From positions 434,001-498,000 of the forward strand of contig JAGYIE010000002.1 of assembly GCA_018402765.1 (NCBI GenBank): a stretch of DNA of 64,000 nt, given 5' to 3'. Shown in pieces: positions 4,717 to 16,710 of this stretch. Every line of letters starts with the position of its first letter. Position 1 is the first letter of the stretch. The position numbers and the translations under genes were made by a program. Below the pieces are notes generated by a model. That model saw only the letters and a program-made list of their open reading frames with translations, had not been told where the DNA came from and searched no databases. Source of the DNA: Vicingaceae bacterium (lineage in GTDB: Bacteria > Bacteroidota > Bacteroidia > Flavobacteriales_E > Vicingaceae).

Positions 4717-4939
4717 CTTTTCACTTTTACGCCAAAATCAATCATTTTAATGAAATAATGAGATCTATTTTACAACCTATTTTGGCGCTTCCTAATAGTG
4801 TAGAAAAAATAAAGTCTAGGGTTTGTAAGGGCTTCAATGCTTATGGGTTATAAAAAGATAATTTTTTAACTACTTCATTTGTTTGGTGTTAATTTTTACT
4901 ATAAATTTAAAACATCCTAATCAATTAATCCTAAGACCA

Positions 4940-7900
4940 ATGAAACATCTATTAACCTATCTATCTTTAGTTATAACCACTATTTTCTTCAGCTTTTCAC
5001 AATCTATCGTAGGACCAATAGGGGTTTGTGAAGAAGAAATTTCTAATTATTCTGCCAATATTCCTAATGGTGCTTTCTATACTTGGAATTCTACAAGTAC
5101 AACGTCAAACATTACCAATGGTAACACTTATGATGTTGTTTGGGGACAATACGCAAGTGGACAAATTACCCTAATTGTGGAAGATAGTACCAGAAGTGTT
5201 ATTTATACAGGCGCTCTTACTGTTACTATCAATCCAAAACCACGATCCATAATTCAAGCTAGTAGTATTAATGAATGTGTTCTTTATGGAGAGGATAATA
5301 CGGCAAACTGTTGGGTAGCCTGTGAGGGTGTTCCAATAACATATAGCGTACCTAGTGTAGCAGGTAATACTTATCAATGGAGTGTTTTGGGCGCTACCTC
5401 AATTCAAAACCCAACAACTAACGAAGTAACTGTTACATGGAGCTCATTGGGTATTGGTGAAATAAAATTGGTGCAAACCAATAGTTTTGGATGTTCTGAC
5501 TCTGTAAAGCAATGTATTTTAGCGATATCAAAACCAACGGCCAATTTTACTTCGGTTCCATCAATAGCGAATAATTCTGTGAAGCTGTGCAAAGGAAGTA
5601 CATTGTATTTATCGGATAACTCCGGTAATGCCATAAGGTGGGATTGGGACTTTGGGGATGGATTTAGATCATCCCAACGTAATACCGATCATACTTTTAA
5701 TATACCAGGAGTTTATAATTTAACGCTCAATGTATATAATGAGTGCGGATGCATCGATTCTAAAACCATAATCGTAGATGTAACTCCCACTGTGGGACCT
5801 GAAATAATTTGTCCATCAGTAGTATGTGAAGGAGATACGGCAATCTACCATACTACTTCTATTTGCCCTGCTTATAAATGGGAGGTAACTAATGGAACTA
5901 TTGTGGGAACAGATTCTGATATTGAAGTGAAAGTAATTTGGGAAGAACATACTGGGTTTCTTGAATTAAATACGTTCAATTGCCCAGGTACCTGTCCAGA
6001 AAAGACAGCAATTAAAATACCTGTTATTTCAGATTCATTAGAAATTAAAGGATCTCTGAATACCTGTTTCAATGAGTTTGAAACGTATTTCATAGACCAG
6101 ATTCCTGAATCAGATTACACATGGACAGTAGACCCAAGTATTGGAAGTATTTATGACCAAGATAAAAATAAAGTGATAGTCGCTATTACTGGAAATTCAG
6201 GTATTGTAGCAGTCTCTATTGATCATCCCATATTTGGATGCATGGCAACTGATTCTATCATTGTAACTTCAAGACCTAAACTTGAAATTACAACCACAGA
6301 GAATGCCTTTTGTCAAGGAGATTCTTTTGCATTTCAATCAAATTTTGCTGGTATTTGGAAAATCTATGATGCAAATACAACGGTTAATTTTACAAGCAGT
6401 GCGTCTACAACCTATGATGTAAATTCTTCAACTATACCTCCTGGTTCTTACTTTGTTGAAATAGCAGGAAATGGTTATTGTAATCCTTATGCACATTATC
6501 CGATAGAAGTATTACCAAAACCATCAAAACCTGCCTCTATTGATGGGGAGCTATTGGTGTGTCCTCAAAAAGGATATGAATATAGTGTACCCCAAATTGC
6601 TAATGCTACTGCAATATGGGAAATTCCAAATGGTAGCCCTTTTGATAATATAGGTAATAAGACAACGGTCAATTGGTTGCCCACTGGACCATATAAAATA
6701 ACTACAAAGTATGAGAATAATACAACCGGCTGTACTTCTGATACCACTGAATTAACTGTACATCCATTTATCTCTGCTCCTCCTCAAATTTTAGGGGATG
6801 CAATAGCTTGTGGAGGAGTTACCAAAACATATAAAGTAAATATTACTAGTGATGTGTATGACTGGACGTTAGTTCCAGCAAGTGCAGGAAGTATTATTTC
6901 TGATCGATACGCAGACAGTATAATTGTAATATTTAATAACAATGCTCAAAATTCAACTGCTCAAATAAAGCTGGAAGGGTATGCCTGTAATACCAATCTT
7001 CAATTGAATAAAACTGTTCAAGTATTAGCTACTCCATCAGCTGACTTTACTTACACAGGTGGCGGCTGTGCAGGTGATCCAATTCAGTTTAACTGTTCTT
7101 TAGGTACTGCGTGGAGCTGGGACTTTGGGGATGGGAACACTTCTAGTGCTCAAAACCCTACTCATACATTTAATAATGGAGGCTCATATGTAGTTTCACT
7201 TACCATTACAAATCCTGGTAATAACGGATGTTCTCCACTTATAAAAACAACCAAACAGATTACAGTAAACTCAAAGGCAAAAGCAAAAATTTCAAGTCCT
7301 GATCAATTGTTGTTTTGTATTCCTGTAATACCTGCACCTGCCACCTTCTATGCTTCTGTTCAAGGGAATAGTGCTTCCTATTCTTATACCTGGTATGATA
7401 ATGGAAATACGGTAGGTACGGGTACAACTTATACAACTTCATCTCCTGGTTCTTATTACTTCATCGCAACTCCTGCTACAGGTTGTAGTCTTCAGTCTAC
7501 TTCATTGGATTATATCGTAAAAAATTGCGGTTCGCCTTGTGATACAAATTCACATAGTGTAAATTTTGCAGTTTCAAAACCAAGTGGCTGTCAATCTGCA
7601 CAAGTGCAAACCTTTACCACAAACCTTCAATACCTTAATTATACTATTAATTGGGGAAGCTCAGGAGTTCAAGGAAACAATGGACCGTTTTCTGAATCAT
7701 TTGTTTATAGTAATGCAGGAAAATATAAAGTGAGTCTAAATTTTTTATATGTAACACCTAACAATGATACCTGTGGATTTAGTGCTAGTGATACTGTTAC
7801 CATTTACAACACAGCCAATTTTGACTATGAGTTTGTTGAATGTGCCGTTAATGGCATTAATGTAAAGTTTAATAATACCACTACTTATGTCGGAAATCAG

Positions 7901-10513
7901 CCTTCTGCATTATGGAACATAGATGGTGTAAATTATTCAACATATGATGTAACTAAAGTAATGCAAGGCGGCACTTATCAAGTTACTCTTACTACTACTT
8001 CAAATGGCTGCACCACCTCCGTAACCAAAACCATAGATATACCAACACCTGGAAAGGTAGATTTTACCCATACAGCCCCTGCTTGCCAGCAAGAACCAGT
8101 CATTTTTAATAGTACTGTGCTAAGCGGAAATATTATTAATTACCAATGGGATTTGAATTCAAAAACACTGAATAACCCCAATGTGACCGCAACTTTTGAA
8201 AATTCAAACAATTACGGACAGCAATTAGACCCATTCATTTTCCTTTATACTCAAGATGATACAGGATGTAGAGATACGGTAGCAAAACAAATTACCATTG
8301 ATGGGAATGAGTTGTATGGTAGTTCCTTCAATCCACCCACAGTAACTTCTAATTCACCGAATGGAATTTGTTATGGAGATTCAGCATTAATAAGTATAAA
8401 TCCTATAATCACAACTTCAAATACACCCATCAATTATATTTGGTCCAATTTGGCTACTAATGATACTACTTGGGGTACGAAAACTGGAGATTATGGTGTG
8501 CGGATTTCAGATGCTGCTAACTGCCGCTTGGAGTTACCACCTGTTAACCTATCGGTTCAAAATGGGGTTCGGCCGGCTATTGAGGGTAAAACGACCTATT
8601 GTGCTCTAGAGCCTGTTTCTTTAAGTTTTTACTATAATTACAATATTGATTATAAATGGTACATCGATGGTGTAGTGGTTCAGCAAAATTTTATAGACCA
8701 ATTGGACACCACATTAGCTCCCGGTACGTATGAAATAAAAGTAACTACGGAAAATTTATTAAGTGGCTTAGGCTGTAAAGATTCTACCACTTTGTCCATT
8801 ACGGTATTGCCTCCTCCAGCAGCACCAACCATTACTTCAACTGCTCAATTGCCTTATTGCGAAGGGCAGTCCATTGTATTTACAGCGTTTAGTCCCGATG
8901 CACTAAACTATAATTGGAACAGTGGTCAAAGCAGCCCGAGTATTACTGTAAATCAACCGTATAATTATAAAGTCACGATTACCGATGCTTTCGGATGTAC
9001 CAACTCTGATAGCACAGCAATACATCCACTACCAGATTTTTCACACTTTCTAACTGGTTGTTATTGTTTTCCTACTGATGATAATGCACCTGTAGTTCAC
9101 GGACCTTCTAATGCATCTACTTACCAATGGTACTTAAATGGAGGTGCTGTAGCAGCACCTGTAGGTGTAGCCGACTCGTTTAGAACAGTTCCTGGTGAAA
9201 TTCAGTTAACGGCTACAACTTCTGAAGGTTGCACAGCTAACTCAGGGATTTTAGACATTTCCGCTTTTCCATGTACCAATTGTACCGTTAGTCTAGCTAA
9301 TCTCAATATTCAATGTGCCGGTAGAGATGCCAATGGAGCACTAATGTTTAGTTTTGGAACAGATTTCACCTTTAGTGGTACACAAGGGAGTTCCTATTTT
9401 GTAACCTCTACCATAAATGGCACTCCTGCAGGAAGTATCTCCCAATTAAATTTATTAGGTACTGCAAATGGCACTAAGCCCTTAACAGGATTATTCACAA
9501 TTCCGTCAGCAAATGAAACTGATATACTATGTATAGAAGTTACAGTGGTAGATCCTGTGTATGGTATCTGTAGGTTCGAAATATGTGAAAAGTTACCAGA
9601 GGCACAGTGTGAGATAGTGGCCGATTTTTCCTATGTGATTGATCCGATAACATGTGTCGCCACATTTACCAATACGAGTATAATAGACCCTTGCACTTTT
9701 GTAAACCCAAATGATGTAAATTGGACAGTAAATTACAATAACTTAACCGCATTATATACCGGAAATTCGTTTTCAATTGGTAACTTAAGTGGCGCTGTGG
9801 AGGTGTGTATGAGCATATTGGGTGTGAATTATATGCAAACGAACGATTGTCACCCAGATGTGTGTAAAGAAATAGAATATGATTGGGAAGCTTGCAATAA
9901 AGAATGTGAGGAATGTCAAATAGAAGTGAATACGATCAATTTTAAGGCATACACCACAGGATGTGAGTTTCAAATAGACCTTGACTTGGATAATTTTGGA
10001 GGCGATTTAACCTACATCGGAGGAAACTCGGTACATGGATTAGTGACTTCTTTTTCGAGCACATCTGTACCCATTGGAAATGGAGCATACTCATTTACGT
10101 TTATTAGTAATAATCCCAGTGATACGTATATTTGTGTGAAGTTATTTTTTGAGCATGAAGGAGAAATTTGTTGCATAGAAGTATGCCTAGAAATTCCTCC
10201 ATGTGATAAGGGAAGAAAGAAGGGCACAATTGAAGTAGAACAAGCAAAATCAAGCTTGCCAAATGATTTTCTTATTGTACCCAATCCTGCATCTAATTTC
10301 TTTACCCTAAAATGGCAACCTTTTGCGAATGCAAACGTCATAAATGCAAGTATCTACGACATGCATTTTCAGTTGGTAAAAACAGTAACTTTATCCAATG
10401 AAGCTAGTGAATATCGTTTTGAATCTGAAGGGTTCAGAAGTGGTGTTTATCTAGTGGTCTTAGAAACATCTACTAACCGAATTAGTAAACCATTAATCAT
10501 CACTAAACCCTAA
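4940..10513 (+). CDS. Very large secreted PKD/Ig-like repeat protein with T9SS type A sorting domain
   Basis: Signal peptide MKHLLTYLSLVITTIFFSFSQ; PKD motifs WDWDFGDGFRSSQRNTDHTFN and WSWDFGDGNTSSAQNPTHTFN; C-terminus VPNPASNFFTLKW...GVYLVVLETSTNRISKPLIITKP. Confidence 0.88.
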   Translation: MKHLLTYLSLVITTIFFSFSQSIVGPIGVCEEEISNYSANIPNGAFYTWNSTSTTSNITNGNTYDVVWGQYASGQITLIVEDSTRSVIYTGALTVTINPKPRSIIQASSINECVLYGEDNTANCWVACEGVPITYSVPSVAGNTYQWSVLGATSIQNPTTNEVTVTWSSLGIGEIKLVQTNSFGCSDSVKQCILAISKPTANFTSVPSIANNSVKLCKGSTLYLSDNSGNAIRWDWDFGDGFRSSQRNTDHTFNIPGVYNLTLNVYNECGCIDSKTIIVDVTPTVGPEIICPSVVCEGDTAIYHTTSICPAYKWEVTNGTIVGTDSDIEVKVIWEEHTGFLELNTFNCPGTCPEKTAIKIPVISDSLEIKGSLNTCFNEFETYFIDQIPESDYTWTVDPSIGSIYDQDKNKVIVAITGNSGIVAVSIDHPIFGCMATDSIIVTSRPKLEITTTENAFCQGDSFAFQSNFAGIWKIYDANTTVNFTSSASTTYDVNSSTIPPGSYFVEIAGNGYCNPYAHYPIEVLPKPSKPASIDGELLVCPQKGYEYSVPQIANATAIWEIPNGSPFDNIGNKTTVNWLPTGPYKITTKYENNTTGCTSDTTELTVHPFISAPPQILGDAIACGGVTKTYKVNITSDVYDWTLVPASAGSIISDRYADSIIVIFNNNAQNSTAQIKLEGYACNTNLQLNKTVQVLATPSADFTYTGGGCAGDPIQFNCSLGTAWSWDFGDGNTSSAQNPTHTFNNGGSYVVSLTITNPGNNGCSPLIKTTKQITVNSKAKAKISSPDQLLFCIPVIPAPATFYASVQGNSASYSYTWYDNGNTVGTGTTYTTSSPGSYYFIATPATGCSLQSTSLDYIVKNCGSPCDTNSHSVNFAVSKPSGCQSAQVQTFTTNLQYLNYTINWGSSGVQGNNGPFSESFVYSNAGKYKVSLNFLYVTPNNDTCGFSASDTVTIYNTANFDYEFVECAVNGINVKFNNTTTYVGNQPSALWNIDGVNYSTYDVTKVMQGGTYQVTLTTTSNGCTTSVTKTIDIPTPGKVDFTHTAPACQQEPVIFNSTVLSGNIINYQWDLNSKTLNNPNVTATFENSNNYGQQLDPFIFLYTQDDTGCRDTVAKQITIDGNELYGSSFNPPTVTSNSPNGICYGDSALISINPIITTSNTPINYIWSNLATNDTTWGTKTGDYGVRISDAANCRLELPPVNLSVQNGVRPAIEGKTTYCALEPVSLSFYYNYNIDYKWYIDGVVVQQNFIDQLDTTLAPGTYEIKVTTENLLSGLGCKDSTTLSITVLPPPAAPTITSTAQLPYCEGQSIVFTAFSPDALNYNWNSGQSSPSITVNQPYNYKVTITDAFGCTNSDSTAIHPLPDFSHFLTGCYCFPTDDNAPVVHGPSNASTYQWYLNGGAVAAPVGVADSFRTVPGEIQLTATTSEGCTANSGILDISAFPCTNCTVSLANLNIQCAGRDANGALMFSFGTDFTFSGTQGSSYFVTSTINGTPAGSISQLNLLGTANGTKPLTGLFTIPSANETDILCIEVTVVDPVYGICRFEICEKLPEAQCEIVADFSYVIDPITCVATFTNTSIIDPCTFVNPNDVNWTVNYNNLTALYTGNSFSIGNLSGAVEVCMSILGVNYMQTNDCHPDVCKEIEYDWEACNKECEECQIEVNTINFKAYTTGCEFQIDLDLDNFGGDLTYIGGNSVHGLVTSFSSTSVPIGNGAYSFTFISNNPSDTYICVKLFFEHEGEICCIEVCLEIPPCDKGRKKGTIEVEQAKSSLPNDFLIVPNPASNFFTLKWQPFANANVINASIYDMHFQLVKTVTLSNEASEYRFESEGFRSGVYLVVLETSTNRISKPLIITKP

Positions 10514-12298: not shown

Positions 12299-12826
12299 TT
12301 ACGCAGCTTTCTCTATTTGATACTTCAAGACGCGCTCCCAACTTAATTTAAACCATTCAGTGTAGCTATTGGGGTTTGCTCGCAAATCAGCATCTAACTC
12401 TTTAGGGCATATCCATTTCCAAGCATTTACCTCATCAGTATTAATATTGGGTTGCTCGTCATAGTGCCCAATGAAAACATGATCATATTCATGCTCTACC
12501 AATCCGTTTGAAAACTCTGCACGATAAATGAACTGAAATATTTCTTCCATTTCACAATCAAATCCCATCTCCTCATTTAACCGTCTTTGGGCGGCCTCTA
12601 TGCAGGTTTCTCCAATTTGCTGATGACTACAGCAGGTATTTGTCCATAACCCCGGAGAATGATACTTGGATAATGCTCGTTGATGAATCATTAGTTGACC
12701 TTGATTATTAAAAATGAAAACAGAAAAAGCTCTATGAAGGAGGCCCTTTTCATGTGCCTCCAACTTTTCCATTACCCCTATTTGGTGATCGTTTTTATCA
12801 ACTAATATTACATGTGGCTTAACCAT
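12299..12826 (-). CDS. idi: Isopentenyl-diphosphate delta-isomerase (type I, Nudix-like)
   Basis: HRAFSVFIFNNQGQLMIHQRALSKYHSPGLWTNTCCSHQ and Nudix-like EAAQRRLNEEMGFDCE. Confidence 0.93.
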   Translation of the reverse strand: MVKPHVILVDKNDHQIGVMEKLEAHEKGLLHRAFSVFIFNNQGQLMIHQRALSKYHSPGLWTNTCCSHQQIGETCIEAAQRRLNEEMGFDCEMEEIFQFIYRAEFSNGLVEHEYDHVFIGHYDEQPNINTDEVNAWKWICPKELDADLRANPNSYTEWFKLSWERVLKYQIEKAA

Positions 12827-13663
12827 CTACAATAAGTTAAAGCTATGTTTGATATACGAGCTTACTAACAACTGGTATTTCTTATTGTTCGGAATGCGAA
12901 TACGTTCACTCAAAATAGTGGTAGAAGGTGTAGCTTGAATCTTTCTAAAAAGTGCATAATAGTAAACATATGCCGTATAAACACCAAAACGAGCATTGGA
13001 AGGCAATTGCTTAATTCCAATATACGCCTCTTTTAAATCTTTATCTATATCTACTTCTATAGTTTTTTTGCTTTCTTCGGTAAATGTATTTAAATCTATT
13101 CCGGGAAAATAACTCCTCCCCATTTCTTTAAAATCAGCTTTTAAATCTCTTAAAAAATTAATTTTTTGAAAAGCTGCTCCAAGTTTCATAGCTGAAGGTT
13201 TTAATGCATGGTATTCTGTATCATTTCCTTGACAAAATACGCGCAAACACATTAGACCTACTACTTCTGCAGAACCCAAAATATACTTTTCGAAGCTCGC
13301 TTGATCATGCTCTTTTTGCTCCAAATCCATTTCCATACTATGAAGAAAAGAATCAATAAGACTACGCTCTATATTAAACTCATTTACAGCCAATTGAAAA
13401 GCATGTAATACAGGATTTAAGCTAATTTTTTGCTCAATTGCTTTGTAAGTGTCTGCCCTAAATTCGTCTAATAATTCTTTTTTACTGAAGTCATGAAAAG
13501 TATCTACGATTTCATCTGCCAAACGCACAAATCCATAAATACTATATATTGGTTCATGAATCTTTTTGTCTAGCATATAGATTCCCAAAGAAAAAGAAGT
13601 ACTGTAGGCATTGGTGACTTGCCTACTAATCTTAAACGAAATATTATCATAAATCGATTTCAT
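12827..13663 (-). CDS. crtB: Phytoene/squalene synthase family protein
   Basis: YGFVRLADEIVDTF aspartate-rich motif; KLGAAFQKINFLRDLKADF. Confidence 0.92.
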   Translation of the reverse strand: MKSIYDNISFKISRQVTNAYSTSFSLGIYMLDKKIHEPIYSIYGFVRLADEIVDTFHDFSKKELLDEFRADTYKAIEQKISLNPVLHAFQLAVNEFNIERSLIDSFLHSMEMDLEQKEHDQASFEKYILGSAEVVGLMCLRVFCQGNDTEYHALKPSAMKLGAAFQKINFLRDLKADFKEMGRSYFPGIDLNTFTEESKKTIEVDIDKDLKEAYIGIKQLPSNARFGVYTAYVYYYALFRKIQATPSTTILSERIRIPNNKKYQLLVSSYIKHSFNLL

Positions 13664-13667
13664 ACTT

Positions 13668-15140
13668 CTAATTTAATCTTTTTTGAATTAATTCGGCAAC
13701 TACCTTCCCTGAGATTAAAGACGGAGGCACACCAGGACCTGGAGTAGTTAACTGCCCTGTATAGAATAAATTTTCTACTTTAGGGTTAATCATCGAAGGT
13801 TTGAAAATAGCGGTTTGTTTTAATGTATTTGCTAAACCATAAGCGTTGCCTTTAAAAGCATGATAATCGTCCTTAAAATCCGCGTGTGCATACGATCTAT
13901 TGTATACTAAGTTTGCTCTAAAAGAATGTCCTAAAAGTTTTTCCATGCGATCAAAAACTACTTCTAAATATTCTTTTCTGTGCATTTCAGTATCTATTAA
14001 ATCCGGGGCAGTAGGAATTAAAATAAATAAATTTTCACCTTGTACAGGAGCTACTGTTGGATCAAGTTTTGATGGACAAGAAACGTAAAATAATGGCTTT
14101 GTTGGCCATTTTGGATCCTCATAAATTTCTTCAGCATGAACAGAAAAAGACTCATCAAAAAATAAATTGTGGTGCTGCAAGCCTTCTATCTTTTTATCAA
14201 ACCCTAAGTAGTAAATTAAACTAGAGGGAGCCATTGTTCGAGTGTCCCAGTAATTTTTGTCGTATCTGCGGTATTCTTCAGGTAAAAGATGTTGCTCTAC
14301 ATGATGGTAATCTGCTCCAGCAACGACTCCATCAAATTCAAACAAATTTCCATTGGCTCTGAAAGAAGAAACTCGTTTTTGATCAATAGTTAATTCTGTA
14401 ACCTCTGCATTTAAGTGAAACTTTACACCAAGGCTTTTAGCCAGAGCAGTCATTCCTTCGACGATTTTATGCATTCCTCCATCAGGATACCAAGTCCCTA
14501 ACTTAATGTCTGCATAATTCATTAAACTATATAATGCAGGGGTTTTTGACGGTTTTGCTCCTAAAAACAAAACCGGAAATTCCATCAATTCAATAATATT
14601 GGGGTTGGTGAAATACTTTCTAACATGACTACTGAAAGAACTAAACAAATTTAAACGAAGAGAACCGACAATCACTCTCCAATCAATAAACTCTGTTATG
14701 GAAAGAGATGGTTTCGTCACCAAGTCATTTATTCCAACTTCATATTTATATTGTGCATCTGCTAAAAATCTGTCTAACTGATTGCCTGCACCTTTTTCTT
14801 TCGTTTCTAATAAATGTTTAAACGCTGTGTAGTCTGCAGGTATATTCCATTTTTCACCATTTTGAAAGTAAATAGTGTACGACGGATCAAGTCGAATTAG
14901 TTTATAATAATCAGACGCTTTTTTACCAAAGTCACTAAAAAATGACTCAAACACATCTGGCATCCAATACCAACTTGGACCCATGTCAAATTTAAAACCT
15001 TCAGCAGAGAATTGTCTAGCCCTACCTCCAGTTTGCTCATTTTTCTCAAAAACTTCTACTTCGTAACCTGCCTTAGCCAAATAAGAAGCAGCTGAAAGGG
15101 AAGAAAATCCGGAACCTATTACAGCAATACGTTTTGTCAT
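13668..15140 (-). CDS. crtI: Phytoene desaturase (CrtI family)
   Basis: IAVIGSGFSSLSAASYLAKAGYEVEVFEKNEQTGGRARQF; C-terminal LFYTGQLTTPGPGVPPSLISGKVVAELI. Confidence 0.94.
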   Translation of the reverse strand: MTKRIAVIGSGFSSLSAASYLAKAGYEVEVFEKNEQTGGRARQFSAEGFKFDMGPSWYWMPDVFESFFSDFGKKASDYYKLIRLDPSYTIYFQNGEKWNIPADYTAFKHLLETKEKGAGNQLDRFLADAQYKYEVGINDLVTKPSLSITEFIDWRVIVGSLRLNLFSSFSSHVRKYFTNPNIIELMEFPVLFLGAKPSKTPALYSLMNYADIKLGTWYPDGGMHKIVEGMTALAKSLGVKFHLNAEVTELTIDQKRVSSFRANGNLFEFDGVVAGADYHHVEQHLLPEEYRRYDKNYWDTRTMAPSSLIYYLGFDKKIEGLQHHNLFFDESFSVHAEEIYEDPKWPTKPLFYVSCPSKLDPTVAPVQGENLFILIPTAPDLIDTEMHRKEYLEVVFDRMEKLLGHSFRANLVYNRSYAHADFKDDYHAFKGNAYGLANTLKQTAIFKPSMINPKVENLFYTGQLTTPGPGVPPSLISGKVVAELIQKRLN

Positions 15141-15150
15141 GTTCTCAAAA

Positions 15151-15654
15151 CTAAGCGTAATCTTCCAAAGCAGATGTTAATTTTTTTCTTGCCAGAAAAA
15201 TTCTACTCTTAACTGTTCCAATAGGCATTTTTAACTCATCAGCGATTTCTTTATACTTATATCCACTGTTATGCATATCAAAAGGAATTCTAACATCATC
15301 GTCTAATCGATCGACTTCTCTCTTTATCTCCTCATATCTTAAGGCAGAGTCAGGCGACTCATCATTTGACGATTTAGGTAAATTTAAGAAATAAGACTCA
15401 TCTGTAGTGTCAATAATTGTCTTTTGCCTTGAGGCTCTTCGATAATTGTTGATAAATGTGTTTTTCATGATGGTGTATAACCAAGCTTTCAAGTTAGAAG
15501 GGTCAACAAACTTATCACGATACTTTAACGCTTTTAATAAAGTTTCTTGTAAAAGGTCATTCGCATCTTCATTATCAGCTGTTAATTTTAATGCAAAAAA
15601 CTTCAACGGATTTTGAAGGGAAACTATTTGATTATTAAATTCTATTGCTGTCAT
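15151..15654 (-). CDS. RNA polymerase sigma-70 family (ECF-type) sigma factor, first gene of the crt operon
   Basis: NDLLQETLLKALKYRDKF; region 4 YKEIADELKMPIGTVKSRIFLARKKL; 10-bp gap to crtI. Confidence 0.92.
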   Translation of the reverse strand: MTAIEFNNQIVSLQNPLKFFALKLTADNEDANDLLQETLLKALKYRDKFVDPSNLKAWLYTIMKNTFINNYRRASRQKTIIDTTDESYFLNLPKSSNDESPDSALRYEEIKREVDRLDDDVRIPFDMHNSGYKYKEIADELKMPIGTVKSRIFLARKKLTSALEDYA

Positions 15655-15655
15655 T

Positions 15656-15686
15656 TTGTTGAACTTTAGTTTATTTTGTTCAACAA
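15656..15686. promoter_or_regulatory. 31-bp interrupted palindrome TTGTTGAAC-N13-GTTCAACAA upstream of ECF sigma/crt operon
   Basis: Perfect 9-bp arms at 15656-15664 and 15678-15686; adjacent TACATTTG (minus strand, 15684-15691) fits a Bacteroidota -7 box; further palindrome ATGTTGCAACAT at 15713-15724. Confidence 0.5.
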
Positions 15687-15816
15687 ATGTATGGATTAAT
15701 TAAACACAATAAATGTTGCAACATGAATTTCATTCCTGAAATAATGTTAATATTTAATTAAATTTGGTTTATAAGTTTGATTTTTAATTATTTATATTGT
15801 TTAATAAATCTTTATT

Positions 15817-16710
15817 TTAATTAAACAACATTGCCTTTTCAAGGTGTTTTATAAACCCAGACGCCTTTTTAAAGGTTTTCACATTGGATGGAAACTTTAA
15901 TGGAGTATGCTCGATTTGAAACCCTGAAACAATTACATTTTTCCCTTTTGCGTCTTTGCCTAATTGATTAATATATTGTTGCAGCTCTTCAGGATCCATA
16001 GGTGCTGTAAAAGAACCCACAACATAATTAACTGCAGGATGATCTTTAAGAATCTTCTGAACATCTTTGTACGGAACAAACTGCCCTAAATAATAAACTT
16101 TATGTCCTCTGCTTTTGATTGCATAATACAAAAACAAGAGGCCAAGTTCATGCATTTCGTGCTCAGGAAGGTATAACAAAAAGGTTCGTGCTTCAGGATG
16201 AACGGCTTTACATTGATCTATTGCGACAATTAATTTCTGGCGAATTAGATGACTTATAAAGTGCTCTTGTGCAGGAGAAATACTGTCTGTAAGCCATAAA
16301 GAACCCACCTTAGTTAGAAAAGGGTAAATTATTTGAATCATTGTATTTTCCATTCCCAATTCTAGAACAAATTCTTCCATTTTCCTAACAAAAGCGGCTT
16401 CATCCAAATCCATTAAGGGCTCTAAAAGGCTATCTATTTTAAAAACAGTGGCTGTGTCTGTATCTAAGTGAACTGCCACTTTCCTTGAAATTTCCTCGTG
16501 GGTAAATCCCGCGATTTTAGAAATTTTTATTCCTGCTCTGTTTAATATCGAAATATTTAGCAGCCTCTTTAATTGATCATCATTGTACAAGCGAAAATTG
16601 GTTTCTGTTCGGTCAGGTTGTATAAGATCATATCGCTTCTCCCATATTCTAATCGTGTGAGCCTTAATGCCAGTAAGCTTTTCTAAATCTTTAATAGTAT
16701 ACTTTGCCAT
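15817..16710 (-). CDS. MerR-type transcriptional regulator with B12-binding domain (CarH/LitR-like)
   Basis: MAKYTIKDLEKLTGIKAHTIRIWEKRYDLIQPDRTETNFRLYNDDQL HTH; WLTDSISPAQEH = Wx9EH; EMHELG = ExHxxG. Start taken as internal Met (CAT 16708-16710). Confidence 0.9.
   Translation of the reverse strand: MAKYTIKDLEKLTGIKAHTIRIWEKRYDLIQPDRTETNFRLYNDDQLKRLLNISILNRAGIKISKIAGFTHEEISRKVAVHLDTDTATVFKIDSLLEPLMDLDEAAFVRKMEEFVLELGMENTMIQIIYPFLTKVGSLWLTDSISPAQEHFISHLIRQKLIVAIDQCKAVHPEARTFLLYLPEHEMHELGLLFLYYAIKSRGHKVYYLGQFVPYKDVQKILKDHPAVNYVVGSFTAPMDPEELQQYINQLGKDAKGKNVIVSGFQIEHTPLKFPSNVKTFKKASGFIKHLEKAMLFN

Follow-up and report, generated by a model that had tools for sequence, protein, structure and literature searches.

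The window (the whole 64,000-nt stretch of DNA that we analysed) carries on its minus strand a gene for a 297-aa MerR-family regulator, followed downstream, on the same strand, by genes for an ECF sigma factor, a phytoene desaturase (crtI), a phytoene synthase (crtB) and an isopentenyl-diphosphate isomerase (idi); uvrC is divergent (Table 1). The open reading frame of the regulator and its translation fall exactly where the first-pass annotation had put them, and the gene order bears out its description of a regulator beside a carotenoid operon. In 58 of 115 homologous loci, the gene immediately after that of the regulator is the sigma gene. The crt region is also adjoined by a gene (positions 4883-10513) for a 1876-aa PKD-repeat-like protein with the look of a C-terminal sorting domain.

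Table 1. Features of the regulator, its candidate operators and the carotenoid genes, in window coordinates.
Feature	Position	Strand	Basis
CarH-like MerR regulator gene	complement(15817..16710)	minus	ATG start, 297 aa plus stop; ORF and translation
MerR DNA-binding domain, residues 4-68, recognition helix RIWEKRY (CarH: RxWERRY)	16507..16701	minus	Pfam PF13411, 55 bits
Wx9EH motif WLTDSISPAQEH, residues W139-H150 (W139, E149, H150 = Thermus W131, E141, H142); residue 140 = Leu at H132	16261..16296	minus	alignment
ExHxxG motif EMHELG, E185-G190; H187 = lower axial ligand H177	16141..16158	minus	alignment
GxxxP element (G209, P213) of cobalamin light-sensor signature	16072..16086	minus	conservation; signature PMC11796333
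SxT (S233-F-T235) of B12-tail motif	16006..16014	minus	aligned to Thermus SxV
S262-G263 replacing GG of B12-tail motif	15922..15927	minus	alignment
Operator O2 TGTTTAATTAAAATAAAGATTTATTAAACA, over 3' end of regulator gene, 121 bp from O1	15798..15827	minus	sequence match
Operator O1 TGTTTAATTAATCCATACATTTGTTGAACA, 7-bp arms, N16, 52 to 23 nt before sigma ATG	15677..15706	minus	exact match
-7 promoter element TACATTTG (Bacteroidota TAnnTTTG) within O1	15684..15691	minus	offset +15 from operator start
ECF sigma factor gene, first of crt operon, LitS-like position	15151..15654	minus	Pfam Sigma70_r2 and r4_2
crtI/crtID phytoene desaturase	13668..15140	minus	NCBIfam NF058655, 732 bits (cutoff 640)
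crtB phytoene synthase	12827..13663	minus	Pfam SQS_PSY, 148 bits
idi isopentenyl-diphosphate isomerase	12299..12826	minus	NCBIfam PRK03759, 183 bits (cutoff 127)

The best PDB matches of the regulator by phmmer were the CarH/LitR structures of Thermus thermophilus (3whp and 5c8d; E ~6e-18), with ~28% identity to Thermus CarH, and it is 86% identical to the protein of its nearest named relative, a Vicingaceae bacterium (Flavobacteriales). Pfam recognised the N-terminal MerR domain (MerR_1), whose helix is of the RxWERRY type described for CarH and listed among its defining features (PMC9304148), together with the cap domain B12-binding_2; the B12-binding Rossmann domain (PF02310) gave no Pfam match in the regulator, whereas other B12 domains of the same genome do match it. 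Of the NCBIfam models, the CarH equivalog NF052513 matched best, and its 94.9 bits fall short of the 400-bit cut-off, which marks the protein as CarH-like and not as a close CarH orthologue. CarH was also the top PDB match in Foldseek of a low-confidence AlphaFold model (input of three sequences; pLDDT 62.7), in which the Rossmann half was mostly near or below 50. Such regulators are widespread in Bacteroidota, being present in 274 of 396 Bacteroidia genomes, and the Bacteroidia proteins form a separate group in the tree (support 100/100). As part of the explanation favoured below, this clade is probably sister to the CarH of Thermus and Myxococcus. The regulator is CarH-like and probably a vitamin-B12-based light sensor.

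Besides the MerR domain, the published criteria for CarH/LitR comprise Wx9EH and a B12 motif, D/ExHx2G/P-x41-SxT/V-x22-27-GG (PMC9304148). Alignments by phmmer to PDB sequences and by MAFFT with the Thermus pTT27 CarH sequence place both Wx9EH and ExHxxG at the CarH positions (Table 1), as the first-pass annotation had proposed. Across 116 aligned Bacteroidia homologues, the W, E and H of Wx9EH are each found in 116/116, the lower-ligand His (Thermus H177) in 115/116, and G209 and P213 (Thermus G199 and P203) in 116/116 and 115/116, respectively. Since mean identity in the effector domain of these homologues is 48%, the near-invariance of Wx9EH and of the lower His argues that the match is not random. 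Only 7 of 205 effector columns are conserved to at least 98.5% (W139, E149, H150, H187, Y207, G209 and P213), and all of these but Y207, six in number, are positions of the published signature of light-responsive B12 domains, which includes GxxW, EH, GxxxP and GxxH elements (PMC11796333). The first three elements are present in the regulator (G136/W139, E149/H150 and G209/P213), whereas the fourth reads HxxH, with H184 in place of a Gly that occurs in 68/116 homologues. In the B12 motif, ExHxxG and SxT are present (x42 between them), with SG where GG is expected; neither this departure from the published motifs nor HxxH had been remarked on in the first-pass annotation.

Among the homologues the first Gly of the tail motif is kept in 8/116 and the second in 99/116, the pair being mostly (S/T/A)G, and the tail-holding half of the Rossmann domain (residues 214-297) is poorly conserved, with a mean identity of 31%. 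We rejected as too strong the view that loss of GG means loss of B12, given that small residues (Ser, Thr or Ala) mostly stand in for the first Gly and that the second is largely retained. A single homologue (L099) has Gln at the position of the lower-ligand His. A relative on Persicobacter pPP1 (L037:4001-4864) has kept the Trp-His pair and lost both EH and the lower-ligand His, and is likely a B12-free derivative.

The residue after the Trp is Leu (L140), as noted at first pass, and the accompanying statement that Thermus CarH ligates cobalt with a His at this position in the light was right, since His132 supplies the upper ligand when the light state forms its bis-His complex (PMC10442372). 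The suggestion drawn from it, that light-state chemistry would differ, holds in so far as this ligand is absent, but not as a peculiarity of this protein: the position is occupied by Gln in 55 of the 116 homologues, Leu in 29, Met in 8, Ser in 6, Ile in 4 and His in 1, so that Leu is the second commonest residue there across the whole clade. Functional B12 photoreceptors with other residues at position 132 are known, namely CtMerR (Arg), SasPcob (Gln) and AbDPcob (Tyr) (PMC11796333), and the Thermus H132A variant binds AdoCbl normally, yet is mostly tetrameric in light (PMC10442372). Because it lacks His132, the regulator is predicted to carry aquo/hydroxo-cobalamin on H187 in its light state, or to rely on a Glu as CtMerR does, rather than to form a bis-His complex, and post-photolysis chemistry unlike that of Thermus CarH is expected clade-wide. 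The regulator has Met186 and Phe211 in place of R176 and D201, the dimer salt-bridge pair of Thermus CarH, and Lys168 in place of G160; of the dimer-dimer contacts G160/G192, only G192 is kept (Gly202). The absence of His132, the altered oligomer interfaces and the inverted-repeat operator described below suggest a different light-state mechanism, and because both salt-bridge residues are changed and the operator is an inverted repeat, a dimer-based switch would be likelier than one from tetramer to monomers.

We rate as more important a feature beyond the coordinates of the first-pass annotation: palindromic operators within 15677-15827 that recur at proteorhodopsin promoters. Upstream of the ECF sigma gene that heads the crt operon lies a 30-bp palindrome, TGTTTAA-N16-TTAAACA (O1), and its spacing of 121 bp from the second site (O2) recurs in two other members of our set (G001 and L003). 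Among upstream regions of sigma genes, 46/59 hold the exact palindrome and 59/59 do so once a single mismatch is allowed (2 on average after shuffling). Of the 68 pairs of convergent half-sites TGTT(T/G/C)AA and TT(A/G/C)AACA counted in these regions, 56 have a spacing of exactly 23 bp, and the consensus operator consists of TTTGTTTAA, 14 less conserved bases and TTAAACAAA. The offsets of TAnnTTTG from the operator start cluster at -6, +4 and +15, about one helical turn apart, with +15 the commonest; such -7 offsets lie on one helical face over the core promoter, so that a bound protein should cover the promoter. Upstream of the regulator gene itself the palindrome was found in 5/58 regions, and autorepression through it was rejected as a candidate, exact sites being found in 1/58 of these regions in loci where the sigma gene follows.

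CarH recognises the half-site TnnACA in an operator of 11-bp direct repeats, nnnnTnnACAn (PMC9304148). The arms of the palindrome carry TnnACA as well, inverted and 23 bp apart, and no peak at the 11-bp direct-repeat spacing of the Thermus-type operator was seen among half-sites of the sigma upstream regions. When 20 regulator-bearing genomes were compared with 20 regulator-free ones, all picked without regard to operators, palindromes with perfect arms occurred in 18/20 of the former (41 sites) and 3/20 of the latter (3 sites), and the strict form at 18 sites versus 0. A general Bacteroidia palindrome was thereby rejected, the element being nearly missing from regulator-free genomes. As judged from genome sequences, the palindrome is tied to the regulator, and we infer that the MerR protein is the one that binds it.

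The link to rhodopsin came from a whole-genome scan of relatives, in which a site was found before a rhodopsin-blh pair (G004). In the 3.1-Mb genome to which the window belongs (as G000:C9:434001-498000, on contig C9) there are only three N16-17 sites, two in the window and one, an N17 operator, ~71 nt upstream of the opsin gene (L280:802-3642, contig G000:C1), where the proteorhodopsin gene is followed by a gene fusing CrtY (lycopene cyclase) to Blh (carotene dioxygenase). Between them, the crt and rhodopsin loci, both with operators, supply genes for phytoene synthase and desaturase, for the cyclase, for the enzyme that forms retinal and for the opsin. We then searched all 396 Bacteroidia genomes for rhodopsins and scanned 88 upstream regions: the exact N16 palindrome occurred in 27/88 (shuffled mean 0.04, maximum 1), and the N15-17 form with at most one mismatch in 49/88 (shuffled mean 2.5, maximum 4), with half-sites 23 bp apart in 29 cases and 24 bp apart in 6. 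The regulator was present in 94/95 rhodopsin genomes versus 180/301 others (p = 9e-17), and the lone rhodopsin genome without it is a fragmented assembly, in which a site nevertheless remains at the rhodopsin gene.

The remaining sites were surveyed in twelve genomes, nearly all rhodopsin-bearing, with one member of each neighbouring family confirmed by Pfam and the others judged by eye. Some of these sites are at ECF sigma genes unlinked to the regulator (G122, G199 and G322) and at crtI genes (G357, G267 and G122). Genes of the 6-pyruvoyl-tetrahydropterin-synthase (PTPS) family stand beside sites in five genomes (L259, L260, L273, L275 and L277, at about position 1200), and genes for fasciclin-domain proteins directly behind sites in four (L258, L263, L269 and L272, at about position 1200). 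Algae have fasciclin proteins that bind carotenoids (AstaP), so the operator-linked ones could be carotenoid carriers. DUF2452 (two genomes) and DUF4397 (two, the present genome and G056) also occur beside sites (L262, L270, L143 and L271), and further neighbours are two TetR-family genes and a flavin reductase gene.

The genome encodes enzymes that make AdoCbl and enzymes that use it: it has a PduO adenosyltransferase and, as B12 proteins, MetH, methylmalonyl-CoA mutase and a further mutase-type protein (MeaB/B12-binding). PduO was detected in 273/274 regulator-bearing versus 111/122 regulator-free genomes (Fisher, p = 1.5e-5). PduO is near-universal, so this association comes down to the 12 genomes negative for it, and genome completeness is a confounder. 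One genome (G296, L135), 99% complete, has an intact regulator motif and no detected PduO adenosyltransferase.

The explanation that we favour, and consider probable, is that the regulator is an AdoCbl-dependent repressor of the sigma-crt and rhodopsin promoters that releases them in light. It builds on the homology, the conservation of the signature, the operator and its tie to the regulator, and the identity of the target genes, all read from sequence. In the dark, AdoCbl would be held by H187 from below, with W139 and E149 around the adenosyl group, and the regulator would sit on the 30-bp TGTTTAA-N16/17-TTAAACA palindromes overlapping the promoters, keeping the sigma-crtI-crtB-idi and proteorhodopsin-crtY/blh operons off. 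Green-to-near-UV light would break the Co-C bond and the regulator would leave the DNA, possibly by the dimer-based switch proposed above, whereupon ECF sigma factor, carotenoid, retinal and rhodopsin would be made together. AdoCbl binding, the light response, direct DNA binding and the repressive sign are predicted steps of this scheme, and the sign could instead be activation, by analogy with Streptomyces LitR acting on litS in light.

Other readings of the same data must be weighed. The regulator might use the palindromes independently of B12, sensing something else or being countered by a partner, with the B12 motif a relic; CarA provides a precedent for such a CarH relative (PMC9304148), the tail-binding half is degraded and has lost GG, motif loss does occur in the phylum, as in Persicobacter, and G296 appears to lack PduO. 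Relics are not kept invariant, however, as W, E, H and the H177 equivalent are here at the observed level of divergence; the Trp is exactly what CarA lost, and it is universal among the Bacteroidia homologues. With the strong PduO association also pointing to the cofactor, we regard a B12-independent regulator as unlikely. The conserved effector residues would equally fit an AdoCbl-dependent cobalamin or metabolic sensor for which light is a side effect, with crt and rhodopsin genes following B12 status. Yet the predicted targets (rhodopsin, blh and crt) are light-related and not B12 enzymes, the conserved signature is that put forward for B12 domains which respond to light (PMC11796333), and rhodopsin expression in Dokdonia MED134 is raised by light according to work cited in PMC3380642, all of which makes this sensor very improbable.

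It is also conceivable that the palindrome belongs to another regulator, or is the ECF sigma factor's own promoter, and that the MerR gene is merely nearby, given that a sigma gene adjoins the palindrome in many genomes. This is quite improbable, because sites also stand before rhodopsin and crtI genes and before sigma genes that are not linked to the regulator, because their abundance tracks the presence of the MerR gene, and because a 30-bp dyad with 7-bp arms, holding the CarH half-site TnnACA, is unlike an ECF promoter.

Extending the favoured AdoCbl-repressor explanation to the phylum, we lean, on balance, towards a Bacteroidota-wide clade of B12 photoreceptors without bis-His ligation and with a palindromic, dimer-type operator as the light switch so far missing for flavobacterial proteorhodopsin, one that would induce rhodopsin together with retinal synthesis, carotenoids and, in other genomes, PTPS-like and fasciclin proteins. 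Among ocean bacteria, proteorhodopsin is a major system for gaining energy from light; its expression is raised by light in some flavobacteria, and a paper of 2012 described its regulators as unknown except in Vibrio campbellii (PMC3380642). The palindrome before both the crt operon and proteorhodopsin offers a possible means of turning on the sunlight machinery when light arrives, and if this is true, the supply of vitamin B12, an often-exchanged nutrient, would be linked to the timing of light-pump building. Light-induced carotenoids have also been reported in a Chryseobacterium without car/lit genes (PMC7064467). With regulator, operator and target list all defined by sequence, the proposal is directly testable; the clade would further offer CarH relatives that naturally lack His132, with which to ask what parts of CarH photochemistry are essential, and might yield a green-light tool for genetic work in Bacteroidota. 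The protein kind is already known, while the clade, the operator design and the rhodopsin regulon appear new: in a search of mostly open-access literature, which leaves room for a mention elsewhere, we found no paper tying CarH-type regulators to proteorhodopsin control or to Bacteroidota.

Thermus CarH (5C8D, 3WHP) shares with the regulator the MerR domain, the four-helix bundle with Wx9EH, the Rossmann domain with ExHxxG and a place beside crt genes. It differs in having H132 (here Leu), R176/D201 (here Met/Phe) and GG (here SG), and in its operator, an 11-bp direct repeat instead of an inverted repeat of 23-bp pitch; the ECF sigma gene and rhodopsin are predicted targets in our case. CtMerR of Chloracidobacterium thermophilum (8JBS/8JBT, PMC11796333) is another AdoCbl-dependent MerR protein, with Arg at position 132 where the present regulator has Leu. 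CarA of Myxococcus xanthus, a CarH paralogue with MerR and B12-like domains encoded beside crt genes, no longer has the Wx9EH Trp and functions independently of B12 (PMC9304148), whereas the regulator described here keeps the Trp. The nearest known circuit is LitR-LitS of Streptomyces coelicolor (PMC12705666), in which a B12-based MerR regulator controls an ECF sigma gene, whose product drives crt expression in light; in the window, too, the regulator gene neighbours an ECF sigma gene that precedes crt genes. That circuit is actinobacterial, and its LitR is described as an enhancer of litS transcription in light; in the present locus, the sigma gene itself heads the crt operon, and rhodopsin is a predicted target as well.
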